Shown in pieces: positions 27,533-33,784 of a stretch of 64,000 bases of DNA. Each line of letters opens with the position of its first letter. Position 1 is the first letter of the stretch. A program made the translations under genes and the position numbers. The DNA is from Hymenobacter busanensis (GTDB taxonomy: Bacteria; Bacteroidota; Bacteroidia; Cytophagales; Hymenobacteraceae): contig NZ_VTWU01000002.1 in the NCBI RefSeq assembly GCF_008727865.1, positions 496,001 through 560,000 on the forward strand, in the 5' to 3' direction. The notes beneath the pieces were generated by a model. It was given only the letters and a program-made list of their open reading frames with translations. It made no database searches and was not told where the DNA came from.

Positions 27533-28414
27533 ATGAAAACAGACACCATCCTCATTACCGGCGCTACGGGCACGGTAGGCTCTGAACTCGTCCGGGCACT
27601 GGCCAACCGCGGGGCCACCGTGCGGGCCGGGGTGCACTCCGTCATCAAAGGCGACCGGCTCAAGCACCTGAATCCCGAAGTGCAATTAGTGGAGCTGGCT
27701 TTCGAACGCCCCGAGACACTCGTGCCGGCCTTCACTGGCGTCGACCGGGTGTTTCTCATCACGCCGTTTTCGCCCGAGCAGGTAGCCGTTGCCCGGCAGC
27801 TCATTGATGCCGCCAAAGCCGCCGGCGTCAAGCAGGTTGTGAAACTATCGGCACTGGGCGCCGAGGCCGAGCCCGGCATTCAGCTGGGGCGCTGGCACCG
27901 CGAAGCCGAGCAATATCTGGCGCAAAGCGGCTTGTCGTACGCTATTGTGCGGCCCAGCAGCTTCATGCAGAATTTCATCACCTACCACGCCGACGGCATC
28001 AGGCAGCAAGGTGCTATTTACCTGCCGCTCGGCCAGGGCCGCCTCAGCTACATCGACGCGCAGGATATTGCCGCTGCCGCCGCCGCCATCTTGCTCGACG
28101 ACCCGATTCGCCACCACGGCCGCGCCTACCCACTCACCGGCTCCGAAGCGTTGTCGACCGACGAGGTAGCTCGCATCATCGGTCAAGCCGCTGGCCGCGA
28201 CGTGCGCTACGTCGACCTGCCCGAGGATGCAGCCCGCCAGGGTATGCAAGGCGCTCCGCAGTGGCTTGTTGATGCCATGATGGAACTGAACGCCATCGGC
28301 AAAGCCGGATACGCCGCCACCGTGGCGCCTGATCTGGAACGGTTAACAGGTCGCCCGGCCCGCACTTTCGCCGAGTTTGCCCAAGACCACCGCACCGCGT
28401 TTGCGGCGGCGTAG
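27533..28414 (+). CDS. NmrA-type NAD(P)H-binding oxidoreductase (atypical SDR)
   Basis: 293 residues. The nucleotide-binding motif ILITGATGTVGSELVRAL opens the protein, followed by VDRVFLITPFSPEQ, KQVVKLSALGAEA and YAIVRPSSFMQNF. The usual SDR Tyr-x3-Lys pair is absent, as in the NmrA/azoreductase-like and quinone-reductase-2 group, which sense or use NAD(P)H. Substrate unknown. The C-terminal half (PLTGSEALSTDEVARIIGQA) fits the same group. A bidirectional terminator follows. Confidence 0.87.
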   Translation: MKTDTILITGATGTVGSELVRALANRGATVRAGVHSVIKGDRLKHLNPEVQLVELAFERPETLVPAFTGVDRVFLITPFSPEQVAVARQLIDAAKAAGVKQVVKLSALGAEAEPGIQLGRWHREAEQYLAQSGLSYAIVRPSSFMQNFITYHADGIRQQGAIYLPLGQGRLSYIDAQDIAAAAAAILLDDPIRHHGRAYPLTGSEALSTDEVARIIGQAAGRDVRYVDLPEDAARQGMQGAPQWLVDAMMELNAIGKAGYAATVAPDLERLTGRPARTFAEFAQDHRTAFAAA

Positions 28415-28490
28415 CGAATCGCCGACTAGCTGTCCGTGGTCGTGTACCTACAATACTCGGCAGCCACCGGTGAATGATTCTCCATTGGCA

Positions 28491-28529
28491 ACAAAAAAGG
28501 CTTTCTGCACTGCAGAAAGCCTTTTTTGT
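28491..28529. terminator. Bidirectional terminator, NmrA-type gene / low-complexity gene
   Basis: A near-perfect palindrome, ACAAAAAAGGCTTTCTGCA on the left and its complement on the right, with A- and T-runs at the ends, between two converging genes. Confidence 0.9.
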
Positions 28530-28546
28530 TATCGGTCAATTACCAC

Positions 28547-30256
28547 TTAGTAGCGGTCATCGTCGTCGCGGCCGCTGTTGCGGCGCGGCGCAGAGCCGTA
28601 GTCCGAATCGTCGTTCGATTGGTTGCGGTAACTGTTGCGGTTTCCTTGGCCGTAGTTGCGGTTGCGGTCCTGCGAGTCATAGTCGCCGCGCGAGGCCGAG
28701 CCCGTGCGCGAGTTACGGTTCGACGAATCGTACTCGTCGTTGTAGGAGCCGCCGCGCGAGCCGTAGCCTTCGCCGGAGTTGCCGCCGTAGCCACCCTGGC
28801 CCTGGTTGTAGCCGCTGCGTGAGCCGTAGTTCTCGTTTTGTGAGCCGTACGACGAACCCGAGCGGCCCGAGCCGTACCGGTCGTCGTTGTAGCCGCCGCC
28901 GTAGCCACCGCCCATGTTGCCGCCGCTCATGCCGCGGTTGCCGCGGCCGTAGTCGTCGCCTTGCTGCATGTTGCTGCCGCCGTAGTTACGGCCGCTGTAG
29001 TCGCCGCCCTGCGAGCCGTAGGTATCCTGGTAGCCGCCGCCCATGCTCTGCGAACGGCCCGAGCCGGAATAGTCGCCGCCACGCGACGGGCGGTAATCCT
29101 CGTGCTGGTTGCGACGGCCGTACTGGCTGTCGTCGCCTTGGCCGTAGCCACCGCGCATGCCTTGGCCGCCGCGGTTGCTCATGCCCCCGCCCATCGACGA
29201 GCGGCCGTAATCTTCGCTGTAGCCCTGGCTGCGGCCGTAGTTAGAGCCGTTGTCGTTGTTGTAGTCGTTGCGGCCCATGTTGCCTTGCGAGCCGCGGCCG
29301 TAGTCGCCACCTTGGCTGCCGTAGCCTCCCTGGTCGTTGCGGTTGCTCATGCCTCCTTGGCTTTGGCTGCCGTAGCCGCGCTCCTGATAGCCGTAGGAGT
29401 CGCGCATGCCTTGGCCGCCGCTCATGTTGCCTTGGTGCATGTCCTGCGAGCCGCGACCGTAGCTGCCGCTGTAGCCGCCCTGATTGCCGTAGCCACCTTG
29501 GCCCTGGTACTCGTCGCGGCCGCTGTACTGGCCGTAGGAGTTGCCTTGGCCGCCGCGGTTGTACTGATCCTGCCCGTACTCGTTGCCGCGCGAGCGGGTG
29601 TCGTAGTCGCGGTTTTGATTGCCGTAACCACCCTGGGTATTGCCGGAGCCCTGGCTACCGTATTCGCCACGCCCCGAGCCGCTGTACATATTTTCGTCCC
29701 GGTCACGGTCGTTGTAGCTGCCCTGGGTGCTGTTGCCGAAGTTGCCGCCGTAGTTGCCGCGGCTTTCGGAGTTGCTATCCATGCCGCCGCTGTTTTGCTG
29801 GCTGCCCGACATCGACAAAGAGTCCTGGTTTTGGCTGCGGCTGCTCGACGAAGACGACGAGCCTTTGCTGCCCGATTTCTTGGCCGTGGCCGACGTGCCG
29901 CTGGCACCCGTAGCGCTGGTAGCGCCCGATTTGCTGCTCGACGATTTGCTGCCGCTGGCAGATGATTTGCCCGTGCTGGCGCCACTCGTACGGCTGGTGC
30001 TGCCGCTCTTGCCAGCCGACACCGCTCCCTGGCCCATGCTCGTTTGCGAGTCGGCCAGCGACTGGCTGGAAACACTCGAGCCTGACGTACGGTTGCTGTC
30101 AGTGCTGCCGCTGGTCAGGCTCGTGGTAGAACCAGATTGATTGGTGCCGGAGTTCATGCCGCCGGTCGATGTCGAGCCGGAAGCCGAAGTACCCGACTGC
30201 ATCGAACCGGCATTCTGGTTCTTGGCGTCGTTCTGATTTTTGGTGTTGTCAGCCAT
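28547..30256 (-). CDS. Gly/Ser/Tyr/Gln/Arg-rich low-complexity protein, FUS-like
   Basis: 569 residues from the ATG at 30256 (MADNTKNQNDAKNQN); no signal peptide, so probably cytoplasmic. Residues 1-161 are Ser/Thr/Gly/Ala with scattered Lys and Arg (for example SGSKSSSSKSGATSATGASG). Residues 162-569 are built from short motifs such as QGGYGSQGGDYGRGSQ, with about 47 Tyr by hand count, many RG, GRG and SGR steps, and no Leu, Ile, Val, Trp, Cys or Lys at all. This is the make-up of prion-like FUS-type domains mixed with RGG-like segments, which condense and bind RNA in eukaryotes; here such a role is inference. I recognise no folded domain. It is real coding sequence: the frame is open throughout, ends at a terminator, and the opposite-strand frames are by-products of the repeats. 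A palindrome lies about 100 bases upstream. Confidence 0.8.
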   Translation of the reverse strand: MADNTKNQNDAKNQNAGSMQSGTSASGSTSTGGMNSGTNQSGSTTSLTSGSTDSNRTSGSSVSSQSLADSQTSMGQGAVSAGKSGSTSRTSGASTGKSSASGSKSSSSKSGATSATGASGTSATAKKSGSKGSSSSSSSRSQNQDSLSMSGSQQNSGGMDSNSESRGNYGGNFGNSTQGSYNDRDRDENMYSGSGRGEYGSQGSGNTQGGYGNQNRDYDTRSRGNEYGQDQYNRGGQGNSYGQYSGRDEYQGQGGYGNQGGYSGSYGRGSQDMHQGNMSGGQGMRDSYGYQERGYGSQSQGGMSNRNDQGGYGSQGGDYGRGSQGNMGRNDYNNDNGSNYGRSQGYSEDYGRSSMGGGMSNRGGQGMRGGYGQGDDSQYGRRNQHEDYRPSRGGDYSGSGRSQSMGGGYQDTYGSQGGDYSGRNYGGSNMQQGDDYGRGNRGMSGGNMGGGYGGGYNDDRYGSGRSGSSYGSQNENYGSRSGYNQGQGGYGGNSGEGYGSRGGSYNDEYDSSNRNSRTGSASRGDYDSQDRNRNYGQGNRNSYRNQSNDDSDYGSAPRRNSGRDDDDRY

Positions 30257-30351
30257 GATGAGGGTGTTTTGGGTGAAAAGATGGGGAAACAAAAAGTGCC
30301 TATCCTATACGCTGCGCATTCTGCCGAGTTCCGTTTTTTGCACACTTTCAT

Positions 30352-30424: not shown

Positions 30425-30461
30425 AAAAACAAACCAGCCACTGCGGGAGGGCAGTGGCTGG
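30425..30461 (-). terminator. Terminator after gldH
   Basis: CCAGCCACTGC (30434-30444) and GCAGTGGCTGG (30451-30461) pair; read on the minus strand the stem is followed by a T-rich TTTGTTTTTG. It ends the ricT-gldH transcript. Confidence 0.85.
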
Positions 30462-30483
30462 CTTCAGGTAAAAAACAAGCTTG

Positions 30484-30993
30484 TTAAGGCGTGTCGGGTG
30501 CTTTTTCATTGGCTTTGACTACCCGTACGCCCATAGCCATGATGCCCGGCAATACGTCCTGCCGCATGTACTGCTCCAGCACCACGGTGTAGGTACCGGG
30601 GCGCGCAAACCGCTGCTTCGGAAGGGCCAGAAACTGGTGGTCGAAAATGTCGCCGGTGCCGTCGCCGAGTGGTTCGCCGGTCTTGGGGTCCATCAGAACC
30701 ATGTGGTGCAAAAGCCGCGACACCACTTGCCCGTCGGGCCCCGTGAGTGTGTGCTTCACATACAGGTTGTAGTAGCCGTAGGCCGAGGCGTTGCGCACAT
30801 TGAAATACACGTCGTACAACTGCGTGGTGTCCTGAATATCGAACGAAAACGAGGGCTTGTTCTGCACCGACCACGCATAGTCGGGCAGGTCGATGTTGGT
30901 TTCGTACACCCGGTTTGGGTCGCAGGCCACCAATAGCGGCAGCACCAGCAGCCACAGCATCGCACGCAACAGGGCAAGGTTGTTCATCGGCAT
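30484..30993 (-). CDS. gldH: Gliding motility lipoprotein GldH
   Basis: 169 residues. A lipoprotein signal (MLWLLVLPLLVACDPNRVYE) has its lipobox Cys in VAC. The mature part carries the GldH pattern: YETNIDLPDYAWSVQNKPSF, YDVYFNVRNASAYGYYNLYV, LLHHMVLMDPKTGEPLGDGTGD with IFDHQF, and the ending PGTYTVVLEQYMRQDVLPGI. GldH is required for gliding in Flavobacterium and is kept in non-gliding Bacteroidetes. It starts 3 bases after the ricT stop codon, so the two are translationally linked; ATG 30987 is an alternative start. Confidence 0.92.
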   Translation of the reverse strand: MPMNNLALLRAMLWLLVLPLLVACDPNRVYETNIDLPDYAWSVQNKPSFSFDIQDTTQLYDVYFNVRNASAYGYYNLYVKHTLTGPDGQVVSRLLHHMVLMDPKTGEPLGDGTGDIFDHQFLALPKQRFARPGTYTVVLEQYMRQDVLPGIMAMGVRVVKANEKAPDTP

Positions 30994-30996
30994 GGG

Positions 30997-32529
30997 CTAC
31001 GAAGCAGCTGGTGGAGGAGTTGAACCGCCGCCTTCGCCCCCGCTCCGGCGGCCGCCGCGCCGCGAACGGCTGCTGCGGCCCGACCGTTCGGCGGCTCCGC
31101 TGTCAGCTGCCGGTTTTGGTGTCCCCGGCGCCGCACCGTCGGCCGATGGCGACGCGTTGCGGAAACGTGGGTCGAAGCGCGGCGTGGGCCGCTCGGGCCG
31201 TGGCGCGTCGTTGCTGGCGCCGCTGCGGGCCCCACGGCGGCTACCCGAACGGCTGCCTTTCGGGGCCCGTCCTTCGGCTCCTTCAGAAGGCGTAGCTACG
31301 CCCGTGGGCTCGGGCCTCGGCTTGGGTTCCGGCCGCGGCATTGGGGCCGACTTCGGGACCGAAGCAGTGGGCTTGGGTAGCGCATTGCCCGGAGCGGTAG
31401 TGGTGGTAGGCTTCTTCTTGCGCTTGCTGCGCTTGACGCCTTTTATTTTGTCGTCGAGGCGGTCGAGGGAGCCTTCCACGTGGTCCTGCACGCTGGGCGT
31501 GGGTTCGGCCTCAATCACCGGGGCCAGCAGCGCGTCCGGCTTCTCCCCGGCTTTGTTCAGCGTCTGGATTTCGCGCACGCGCTCGGCCGTGAGCATGTGC
31601 CAGTTGTTGTCGCCGCGGTAGGCAAACCACATGCGCTTCTTGAAGATGTCGGTCTTCTGCAGGAAGGCTTCGCCCTGCTGGGTTTGCAGGGGGCGCTGCA
31701 CTTGCGGAATGTCCTTCAGCGCGTCGAGGTAGGTATCGAGCTCGTAGTTGAGGCAGCACTTGAGCCGCCCACATTGGCCCGATAGTTTAGCCGGGTTCAG
31801 GCTCAGATTTTGGTAGCGTGCGGCGGTGGTACTCACGCTCTTGAACTCCGTCAGCCAGGTAGAGCAGCACAGCTCGCGCCCGCACGACCCGATACCGCCC
31901 AGGCGGCCGGCTTCGTGGCGCAACGAAATCTGGCGCATCTCTACCCGCACGCGGAATTCATCGGCGAGGCGCTTGATCAGGTCCCGAAAATCCACCCGGT
32001 CTTCGGCCGAGTAGAAGAATGTGGCACGGGTGCGGTCGGCCTGATACTCCACGTCGGAGAGTTTCATTTTCAGGCGCAACTCGTCGACGAGGGAGCGGGC
32101 CTTGAACATGGTGCCCAACTCCAGGTTTTGGGCGGCTTCAAACCTCTCGATGTCCTCGGCCGTGGCCACCCGCATGATGCCGCGAATGTCCTTGTGGTCG
32201 ACGGGCACCTTTTTCTTGCGCATCTGCAGACGCACCAGTTCGCCCTTCAGCGACACGTGGCCAAGGTGCCAGCCGTTGCCGCCGGTTTCCACCACCACGG
32301 CGTCGCCGGTGACGAGGGCCAAACGATGGGTATTGCGGAAAAACTCTTTGCGGCCGCCCTTGAAGCGCAGCTCGACGATATCGAATTCTTTGAAGTCGAC
32401 GGGCAGGTCTAGGTCCTGCAGCCAGTCGAAAACGTTGAGGCGGTTACAGCCTCCCGATGAGCAGCCCCCTTTGGAGCCGCAGCCAGACGTAGAGCATCCG
32501 CCCCCGCTGGAACATGAAGTGCAAGCCAC
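30997..32529 (-). CDS. ricT: RicT (YaaT/PSP1 family) with Cys-rich head and basic tail
   Basis: 510 residues. In Bacillus, RicT with RicA and RicF carries an iron-sulfur cluster and helps RNase Y mature mRNAs. The PSP1 core is intact (FDIVELRFKGGRKEFFRN, EVRLQMRKKKVP-like segment, RLADEFRVRVEMRQISLRHE). It holds two C-x4-C-C motifs, CGRELCC and CGRLKCC, the first at the known ligand position. Unusual parts: an N-terminal head with Cys at residues 3, 6, 12, 17, 23 and 28 in Gly/Ser repeats, and a C-terminal tail from about residue 365 that is Lys/Arg/Pro/Ser/Gly-rich, probably disordered and able to touch RNA. GTG start at 32529. First gene of the ricT-gldH operon; an exact -7 box lies 62 bases upstream. 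Confidence 0.92.
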   Translation of the reverse strand: MACTSCSSGGGCSTSGCGSKGGCSSGGCNRLNVFDWLQDLDLPVDFKEFDIVELRFKGGRKEFFRNTHRLALVTGDAVVVETGGNGWHLGHVSLKGELVRLQMRKKKVPVDHKDIRGIMRVATAEDIERFEAAQNLELGTMFKARSLVDELRLKMKLSDVEYQADRTRATFFYSAEDRVDFRDLIKRLADEFRVRVEMRQISLRHEAGRLGGIGSCGRELCCSTWLTEFKSVSTTAARYQNLSLNPAKLSGQCGRLKCCLNYELDTYLDALKDIPQVQRPLQTQQGEAFLQKTDIFKKRMWFAYRGDNNWHMLTAERVREIQTLNKAGEKPDALLAPVIEAEPTPSVQDHVEGSLDRLDDKIKGVKRSKRKKKPTTTTAPGNALPKPTASVPKSAPMPRPEPKPRPEPTGVATPSEGAEGRAPKGSRSGSRRGARSGASNDAPRPERPTPRFDPRFRNASPSADGAAPGTPKPAADSGAAERSGRSSRSRRGGRRSGGEGGGSTPPPAAS

Positions 32530-32974: not shown

Positions 32975-33784
32975 ATGAAGCTTACCCAAATTTTACCCGC
33001 TCTGAGCATTGCTGCCTTCTCAATGGTGGCCTTCTCCTCGTGCCAGAAGAAAGAAGAAGTTCTTGCTAAAGACCAAATTTCGAAAGACGAGTTATCCAAA
33101 ATCCAAGCACTGGGCTTTACCTCGGCCGACGCCAAAAAAGTGGACGACGGTATTGTGGTGGAAGGCGACATCCTGCTGACTAAGGAAGTGCTGGCCAGCA
33201 AGCCGGAGAGCCAACTGCTCCGTGTTGGCGAAGATGAGCAATACCGCACCACCAACTTGGTACAGCGCCTGCCCCGCACGCTGACGGTAAAACTGATCGG
33301 CAGCTTCCCTTCTGCCTATGTATCGGCTGTGGATGAGGCCATCCGCCGCTACAACGCGGAGAACCTGCAGCTTCGCTTTACGCGCATCACCGGCAGCACC
33401 TCTGCTGATTTGCCCATTACTTCGCAGTACCTGGGTGCTGGCATCCTGGGCCAGTCGGGTGGCTTCCCCTCGGGTGGCAACCCCGCTCCTGGCTTCAAAC
33501 TGTCGCCGAGCGTAATCAACAGCACCAACGTTGGCTACATTGCCACCATCATGGCGCACGAAATGGGCCACTGCATTGGCCTGCGCCACACCGACTATTT
33601 CAACCGCGCATACAGCTGCGGTGGTGCAGCCTCCAACGAAGGTGCCAGCACGGTAGGCGCTATTCTCATCCCCGGTACGCCCTCGGGTGCCGACCCCAAC
33701 TCGTGGATGCTGGCCTGCGTTGGCAACGGTGTTAGCCGCCCGTTCAACTCCAACGACCGTATTGCCCTCAACTACCTCTACTAA
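32975..33784 (+). CDS. M57-type (dual-action HEIGH) zinc metalloprotease lipoprotein
   Basis: 269 residues. A lipoprotein signal ends in AFSSC with Cys23 as the lipidation site. The catalytic motif HEMGHCIGLRH (residues 195-205) is the extended HExxHxxGxxH of metzincin-like enzymes, preceded by NVGYIATIMA. Between them, AVDEAIRRYNAENLQLRFTR matches the M57 peptidase fold. It probably degrades proteins at the cell surface or in the periplasm. It has an unusual A/C-rich leader and a strong terminator, so it is a single-gene unit. Family assignment rests on the motif and overall layout. Confidence 0.85.
   Translation: MKLTQILPALSIAAFSMVAFSSCQKKEEVLAKDQISKDELSKIQALGFTSADAKKVDDGIVVEGDILLTKEVLASKPESQLLRVGEDEQYRTTNLVQRLPRTLTVKLIGSFPSAYVSAVDEAIRRYNAENLQLRFTRITGSTSADLPITSQYLGAGILGQSGGFPSGGNPAPGFKLSPSVINSTNVGYIATIMAHEMGHCIGLRHTDYFNRAYSCGGAASNEGASTVGAILIPGTPSGADPNSWMLACVGNGVSRPFNSNDRIALNYLY

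Follow-up and report, generated by a model that had tools for sequence, protein, structure and literature searches.

A predicted fully disordered, FUS-like protein of Hymenobacteraceae behind a candidate general-stress promoter

Results

A low-complexity protein gene downstream of ricT and gldH

The window is the whole stretch of 64,000 nucleotides of Hymenobacter busanensis DNA that was analysed. On its minus strand, at 28547..30256, lies an open reading frame of 569 codons plus stop, with its ATG at 30256 and its stop ending at 28547. The preliminary description of this DNA had placed the gene exactly and left out the strand. The gldH lipoprotein gene (30484..30993, minus strand) and ricT (PSP1; 30997..32529, minus strand) serve as syntenic anchors on one side, and an NmrA-like oxidoreductase gene (27533-28414, plus strand) is the downstream neighbour. 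A Peptidase M57 (HEIGH metallopeptidase) gene is also found nearby, at 32975-33784 of the window.

The encoded protein has a low-complexity sequence of FUS-like composition. Its head (residues 1-147; 29816..30256, minus strand) starts with MADNTKNQ, carries a net charge of +7 and is rich in Ser, Thr, Ala and Lys, with 50 Ser, 14 Ala and 9 Lys, in agreement with the Ser/Lys/Ala-rich head noticed initially. The FUS-like tail (residues 148-569; 28550..29815, minus strand) contains all 47 Tyr of the protein and 42 Arg, for a net charge of -6. It is devoid of Leu, Ile, Val, Trp, Cys and Lys, an absence first claimed for about 408 residues and true over 422. The last 408 residues comprise 110 Gly, 58 Ser, 47 Tyr (confirming a hand count), 43 Asn, 42 Arg, 36 Gln, 36 Asp, 13 Met, 11 Glu, 5 Thr, 2 His, 2 Pro, 2 Ala and 1 Phe, so that Gly, Ser, Tyr, Asn, Arg, Gln, Asp and Met together account for 385 of the 408. 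Strict [GS]Y[GS] motifs number 14, and the fraction of Tyr within [GSN]Y[GSN] is 0.49, versus 0.26 in shuffles. The product of the Tyr and Arg counts is 2115.

Alignments delineate several conserved segments, all encoded on the minus strand. Short motif A (residues 63-79, SSQSLADS..SMGQGAV; 30020..30070) is present in the aligned acidic orthologues described below as well. Block B (residues 168-216, YGGNFGNS...RGEYG...TQGGYGNQ.R; 29609..29755) lies near the start of the tail, and a C-terminal motif (DYGSAPRRNSGRDDDD, residues 552-567; 28556..28603) near its end. The most widely conserved motif, GSRGGSYNDEY (residues 497-509; 28730..28768), has the core GGS[YF].[DE].

The reading frame is real and under selection

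Codons at synonymous sites vary along the gene, identical DNA words of 12-18 bases exceed a synonymous-codon shuffle by only about 1.5 standard deviations, and tandem repeats amount to a trivial part of the sequence. Replication slippage was considered as the origin of the low complexity and finds no support in these repeat and shuffle statistics. The gene is open and near gldH in all seven other genomes of the genus examined (8/8 with the window). Pairwise dN/dS values (NG86) of 0.10-0.60 across the 28 pairs of these eight genomes indicate purifying selection on the frame. Thus, the low complexity of the ORF is more than chance, and the protein is real and selected. The preliminary description had named a lack of conserved composition and frame in close relatives as evidence that would count against it; both are kept in 7/7.

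Within the genus, Tyr identity in the tail reaches 0.757, versus 0.628 at random positions (p 0.012, gaps treated as loss). Gly conservation is likewise raised (p 0.0098); for Asp (p 0.14) and Arg (p 0.32), any excess over the average lacks significance. When a Tyr of the tail is replaced, Phe is its most frequent substitute (19/62 replacements).

Predicted disorder, aromatic patterning and location

AlphaFold, run on an alignment of 19 sequences, gave a mean pLDDT of 40.8, with 0/569 residues at or above 70 and no helix. Pfam and NCBIfam searches of the window protein returned no family match. In particular, no RRM, zinc finger or other nucleic-acid-binding domain was found in Pfam (E 1 or better) or NCBIfam, no LEA domain was found in Pfam, and no chain in the PDB sequence search matched at E 1 or better. 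Kinship with the SWFGD-domain protein (NF033157) was also considered and rejected; the organism's own genome has no match above the cut-off, only a hit of 12.1 bits outside this protein.

Evenly spaced aromatics are a hallmark of eukaryotic prion-like domains. In the window protein, the coefficient of variation of aromatic spacing is 0.53, versus 0.91 after shuffling. Aromatics are more evenly spaced than in shuffles in 8/8 members of the genus and in 33/36 FUS-like members overall, versus 21/66 members of the acidic form. Even spacing, a net charge near zero and richness in Tyr and Arg bear out the FUS-type composition and patterning first proposed. In the available excerpts of PMC11820118 and PMC10406433, Tyr and Arg are described as functioning as stickers.

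The best 15-residue Kyte-Doolittle mean is 0.17 in the window protein and -0.36 at most in its first 40 residues, and among the 102 family members scanned, none has a 15-residue window exceeding 1.6. We infer from this lack of a hydrophobic segment that the protein is probably cytosolic. A T9SS sorting domain was also looked for; the window protein has no NCBIfam match of any kind and hence none to a sorting-domain model. The absence of a signal peptide noted initially is thus consistent with hydropathy and family models, neither of which reveals the export signal expected if the protein formed a surface coat.

Hydrophilins are characterized by Gly above 6% and a hydrophilicity index above 1. 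With 134 Gly out of 569 residues and a -GRAVY of 1.61, which served as the index, the window protein exceeds both thresholds. A general definition of hydrophilins is given in the available excerpt of PMC4190154.

The family is found across Hymenobacteraceae

A profile built from 14 members found the gene in 127/204 Hymenobacteraceae genomes. Among the genomes listed, it matched 8/8 in the genus of the window and 119/120 in the sister genus, the total of 120 being deduced from genome order. On the same listing, this profile (A1) found none in the other four genera, and a family confined to Hymenobacter and the window's genus was therefore considered. Synteny contradicts it: in these four genera, a FUS-like ORF of 533-756 residues lies downstream of gldH, on the same strand, in 20/20 genomes. 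The sequence compared was a stretch of about 6 kb following gldH, taken from 20 of the 22 available genomes of these genera (G030 and G034 were left out). Hence, the apparent boundary reflects a limit of the HMM, and the relatives that the preliminary description had proposed to look for in Hymenobacteraceae have the FUS-like architecture in all 20. ORF starts were called at the first ATG, so that some lengths are overestimated.

A scan of named loci with the patterns GGNFGN and GS[RK]GGSY kept 80 of 86 matches, corresponding to 77 loci that belong to Hymenobacter or to one unplaced Hymenobacteraceae MAG. gldH is near the gene in 60/77 of them (61 counting the window). In one Hymenobacter group (L086-L090, L092-L098), the gene is without ricT-gldH neighbours, yet it is acidic and its promoter-like site is kept.

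No such orthologue was found in the gldH neighbourhoods of 20 genomes from other families of the order (20 of 22, the contigs of G047 and G051 ending too soon; L206 spans only 5.6 kb). In an order-wide profile search, 45/291 genomes matched, all 45 of them Hymenobacteraceae, with a profile that may miss divergent members, as A1 did. Judged from these searches, and within what they covered, the protein is specific to Hymenobacteraceae.

Two forms of one gene

We assembled 102 members, 8 from the genus, 74 from named loci and 20 from other genera, after dropping L130, L134 and L135 as duplicates of G001, G003 and G002, respectively. They split into 36 FUS-like and 66 acidic proteins. FUS-like members have 33-59 Tyr and a net charge of -8 to +10. 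Acidic members have 8-25 Tyr, a net charge of -18 to -38 and 11-28% Pro plus Ala. The Tyr x Arg product is at least 814 in the former and at most 702 in the latter, with no overlap and no intermediates. The acidic, Pro/Ala-rich and Tyr-poor orthologue is that of 66/74 named loci (66/77 before the three duplicates were dropped).

In the alignments, short motif blocks are common to both forms while the spacers change. The core GGS[YF].[DE] occurs in 28/28 members found without use of a motif, among them all 20 FUS-like ORFs of other genera; shuffles would yield no more than 0.4 per group. It also occurs in 73/74 named loci, a biased count, since the scan chose these loci by two family motifs.

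A RicT plus GldH tree of 50 loci rejects a single clade of FUS-like members (AU p 1.1e-42). When rooted with 16 outgroup rows, of which 15 were checked as FUS-like and G030 (L059) was labelled so without a check, the tree requires 6 changes of form (5-6 in bootstrap), of which well-supported branches alone force 3. The FUS-like form is probably ancestral, and with a FUS-like root these 6 changes mean that the acidic form arose separately about six times. Several deep branches of the tree lack resolution, so that this figure is a rough one and some switches may have run the other way. As an example of close neighbours with different forms, Hymenobacter sp. BT190 (L116) has an acidic protein of 297 residues and stands beside the FUS-like H. 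psychrotolerans (L117) and H. duratus (L111).

The initial interpretation is therefore retained in part. Its FUS-type composition and patterning, disorder prediction, conservation and lack of export signs stand. The simple view of a "FUS protein" does not: with an acidic, Tyr-poor orthologue in 66/74 named loci, the FUS grammar is not indispensable to the role of the gene there.

The gene has a candidate promoter of its own

Alignment places an ECF-sigma-like promoter, GGAACTC-(spacer)-CGTATAG (AAC-N16-CGTATAG), at 30305..30332 on the minus strand, with the ATG 49 bases beyond. A terminator-like hairpin found by the hairpin scan follows gldH (30431..30464, minus strand); in the genus alignment it has a GC-rich stem and a T run. 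The terminator scan gave 2 sites in the region, versus a shuffled mean of 3.0, so that the scan alone is no proof. With this hairpin, the ORF is probably a transcription unit of its own. Between the hairpin and the ATG, the genus alignment contains the invariant sequence GCGTATAG. On the other side of the gene, an inverted repeat free of mismatches and bearing runs of A and T, which resembles a bidirectional terminator, was read from the sequence at 28490..28530 and is absent from the terminator scan output.

ECF-sigma promoters carry AAC in their -35 element and CGT in their -10 element, and AAC-N16/17-CGTAT has the look of such a promoter. A first pattern, GGAAC...CGTAT, was too narrow (1/8 in the genus) and was abandoned. 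The broader pattern, taken from the alignment of sequences upstream of the target itself and not predicted beforehand, occurs upstream of 34/36 FUS-like and 61/66 acidic genes (95/102), whereas mononucleotide shuffles give about 0.5 and 0.7, respectively. Each stretch searched took in 300 bases upstream as well as the first bases of the ORF: 3 in the genus, 60 in the other genera and 200 in the named loci. The pattern is missing upstream of two FUS-like (L108, L119) and five acidic genes (L105-L107, L120, L129), where either a wrongly assigned start codon or lost regulation may be the cause. A sigma-70 scan of the region gave one unrelated site only.

Genes behind the same promoter-like site

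The strict pattern AACN16-17CGTATAG occurs 7 times in the genome of the window and 83 times in 12 relatives (90 sites in 13 genomes). The reversed pattern, used as a control, occurs 11 and 155 times, respectively, and the strict site is thus not over-represented. Its position is another matter. Where both flanks could be compared (37 of 90 real and 30 of 93 scrambled-control sites), a same-strand ORF of at least 90 residues starts within 200 bp behind 29/37 real sites, versus 8/30 sites with a scrambled -10 element (p 2.7e-5). Conversely, 7/37 real sites fall inside a long ORF, versus 20/30 scrambled ones (p 1.3e-4). Removal of the four target sites leaves 25/33 versus 8/30 (p 1.3e-4). On the mirrored side of the real sites, an ORF starts in 14/37.

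A same-strand ORF of at least 90 residues lies within 200 bp of 68/90 strict sites, the other 22/90 being without one. The target gene itself makes up 12 of these 68 ORFs. Among the best 25 of 36 Pfam families found in the 68 genes are DUF892 (13), the YciF type, DUF4142 (7), YtxH (7), CsbD (7) and SDR (6). GSP39-like SDR genes belong to this set, and GSP39 is YdaD. Singletons include trehalose-phosphate synthase, carbonic anhydrase, YceI, SPW, YkuD_2, ParA-type and HhH-GPD proteins; some, such as the ParA-like ATPase and the base-excision-repair glycosylase, have no stress connection. In the available excerpts of the sources, ytxH, csbD and ydaD belong to the list of the B. subtilis SigB regulon (PMC7824861), and YciF is an enterobacterial stress protein (PMC6262077).

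In the genome of the window, the other genes behind the site encode a YtxH/CsbD protein, a DUF4142 lipoprotein, a disordered protein of 119 residues and a family-less protein of 116 residues; for two of the seven sites, no gene is convincing. The 119-residue protein (G000:C4:69347, L212) is acidic-looking and preceded by AAC-N16-CGTATAG. This copy has no Pfam match, and its counterparts lie behind the same promoter in three relatives of the genus (L226, L228, L296). The gene of the 116-residue protein (L210, G000:C3:917262), which belongs to no Pfam family above the cut-off, starts 34 bases behind AAC-N16-CGTATAG.

In one relative (L280, G026), a trehalose-phosphate synthase-type gene (Glyco_transf_20) stands behind the same promoter, a hint of a role in desiccation. 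In yeast, trehalose and a hydrophilin act together in desiccation tolerance, according to the available excerpt of PMC6054528. For the window protein, a link to desiccation would follow from the company of its promoter alone.

Overall, the position of the site and the genes behind it are unusual, though its number is not, and the site often appears to mark a general-stress regulon of Hymenobacteraceae. A literature search on ECF sigma factors in the general stress response of Bacteroidetes gave nothing on-topic by title or abstract opening. By the evidence of its promoter, the FUS-like gene is apparently stress-regulated. The stress function proposed in the preliminary description thereby gains new support, in the form of an ECF-like promoter common to general-stress genes.

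Discussion

The account that we favour, and consider somewhat more likely than not, is that of a stress-induced, cytosolic disordered protectant that self-associates through Tyr and Arg stickers in its FUS-like form. The gene would have a promoter of its own, read by an alternative sigma factor of the ECF type that also transcribes general-stress genes of the DUF892/YciF, YtxH/CsbD, DUF4142 and GSP39-like SDR types and, in one relative, trehalose-phosphate synthase. The protein would then accumulate under stress, probably drying, cold or osmotic stress. With some 45 Tyr at even intervals, about as many Arg and a polar Gly/Ser/Asn/Gln spacer, the FUS-like form may behave as a sticker-and-spacer polymer. 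It would most likely self-associate, through contacts of Tyr with Tyr and with Arg, into a condensate or gel shielding cytosolic components, and the short motifs kept in both forms could serve to dock a partner. What is conserved in function may be something other than self-association, since 66/74 named loci have lost the grammar and 61 of those 66 have kept the promoter. As most acidic forms keep promoter and motifs with few stickers, either the function can do without condensation or the species that switched perform the same task differently.

An alternative is a generic hydrophilin, a soluble, non-assembling stress protectant in which hydrophilicity and disorder, common to both forms, matter and the Tyr/Gly richness of one form is incidental. 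In its favour, -GRAVY is above 1 in 36/36 FUS-like and 65/66 acidic members, Gly is above 12% in all, most members of both forms retain the promoter, and on the rooted tree the FUS-like form gave way to the acidic one about six times. Incidental Tyr would not, however, be expected to rank among the best conserved residues, nor aromatics to be evenly spaced in 33/36 FUS-like members, and two composition classes without intermediates are not predicted by a composition-independent role. We regard this alternative as unlikely, though worth serious consideration.

The protein could instead be a partner scaffold, whose motifs (YGGNFGN..., GSRGGSYNDEY, PRRN.GRD) recruit client proteins or nucleic acid while the spacers set reach and solubility. 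The persistence of motif blocks amid changing spacers would then be explained, as would the presence of GGS[YF].[DE] in 28/28 unbiased members and in the biased 73/74 named loci. The candidate partner is hypothetical, however, and linkage to gldH is seen in only 60/77 named loci, which makes a scaffold role rather improbable.

The RNA- or DNA-binding stress body of the preliminary description would account for the Arg in RG-type steps and the weakly basic head of net charge +7. It is at odds with the net charge of -6 of the tail, with that of -18 to -38 of the acidic orthologues and with the lack of a binding domain in Pfam and NCBIfam, and we deem it very improbable. As for an exported surface or matrix coat, the adjoining gldH and the resemblance of Gly/Tyr-rich sequence to some structural proteins weigh little beside 102 members without a 15-residue window above 1.6 and a window protein without NCBIfam match, and we give it hardly any credence.

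The self-associating protectant that we favour can be set beside several known systems. The low-complexity domains of the FET family (FUS, EWSR1, TAF15) and of hnRNPA1 have a similar Tyr-rich sequence with Gly/Ser/Gln/Asn spacer and Arg-Gly steps, and the window protein resembles them in its evenly spaced aromatics, near-zero net charge and full predicted disorder. Unlike FET proteins, it is predicted to be disordered throughout, without RRM, RanBP2-type zinc finger or other domain; lacking an RRM or zinc finger match in Pfam at E 1 or better, it is not a FET member. Since the protein is bacterial and family-specific in what was searched, the likeness would be convergent. With hydrophilins and LEA-type disordered stress proteins, for instance yeast Hsp12 in the available excerpt of PMC6054528, it shares Gly-richness, hydrophilicity, disorder and a stress-type promoter; it differs by its Tyr/Arg sticker grammar and by having no LEA match in Pfam. 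In Hymenobacteraceae, it has an ECF-like promoter in common with general-stress proteins of the SigB/RpoS type (YtxH, CsbD, YciF, GSP39), from which it differs in having no family match and in occurring in one bacterial family only, in what was searched.

Prion-like regions of bacterial Rho sit within a folded enzyme. As described in the available excerpts (PMC6400439, PMC13269538), these proteins, such as Rho of C. botulinum and B. thetaiotaomicron, are likewise disordered, compositionally biased and proposed to self-assemble; the window protein differs in having no folded part and in being based on Tyr, Gly and Arg.

FUS-type domains are already known, as are hydrophilins and bacterial stress regulons, and most of what is known about condensate grammar comes from eukaryotic RNA-binding proteins. 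Among the papers that our literature searches listed, none describes a vertically kept, domain-free, FUS-like bacterial protein of a stress regulon that repeatedly lost its grammar. It is conceivable, if short of probable, that a condensate former with FUS grammar evolved here independently of eukaryotes, is deployed in stress through an ECF sigma factor and was toggled about six times while promoter and docking motifs were kept.

The finding matters in several ways. A vertically inherited bacterial protein would consist of nothing but FUS-type grammar, and its promoter would link it with a general-stress regulon, for which the site is a candidate promoter motif in Hymenobacteraceae. Orthologues with parallel loss of the grammar would allow bacteria to be used to ask whether Tyr/Arg stickers protect and what the acidic version does. 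If true, the toggling would amount to a series of natural grammar swaps, all made within one orthologous gene.
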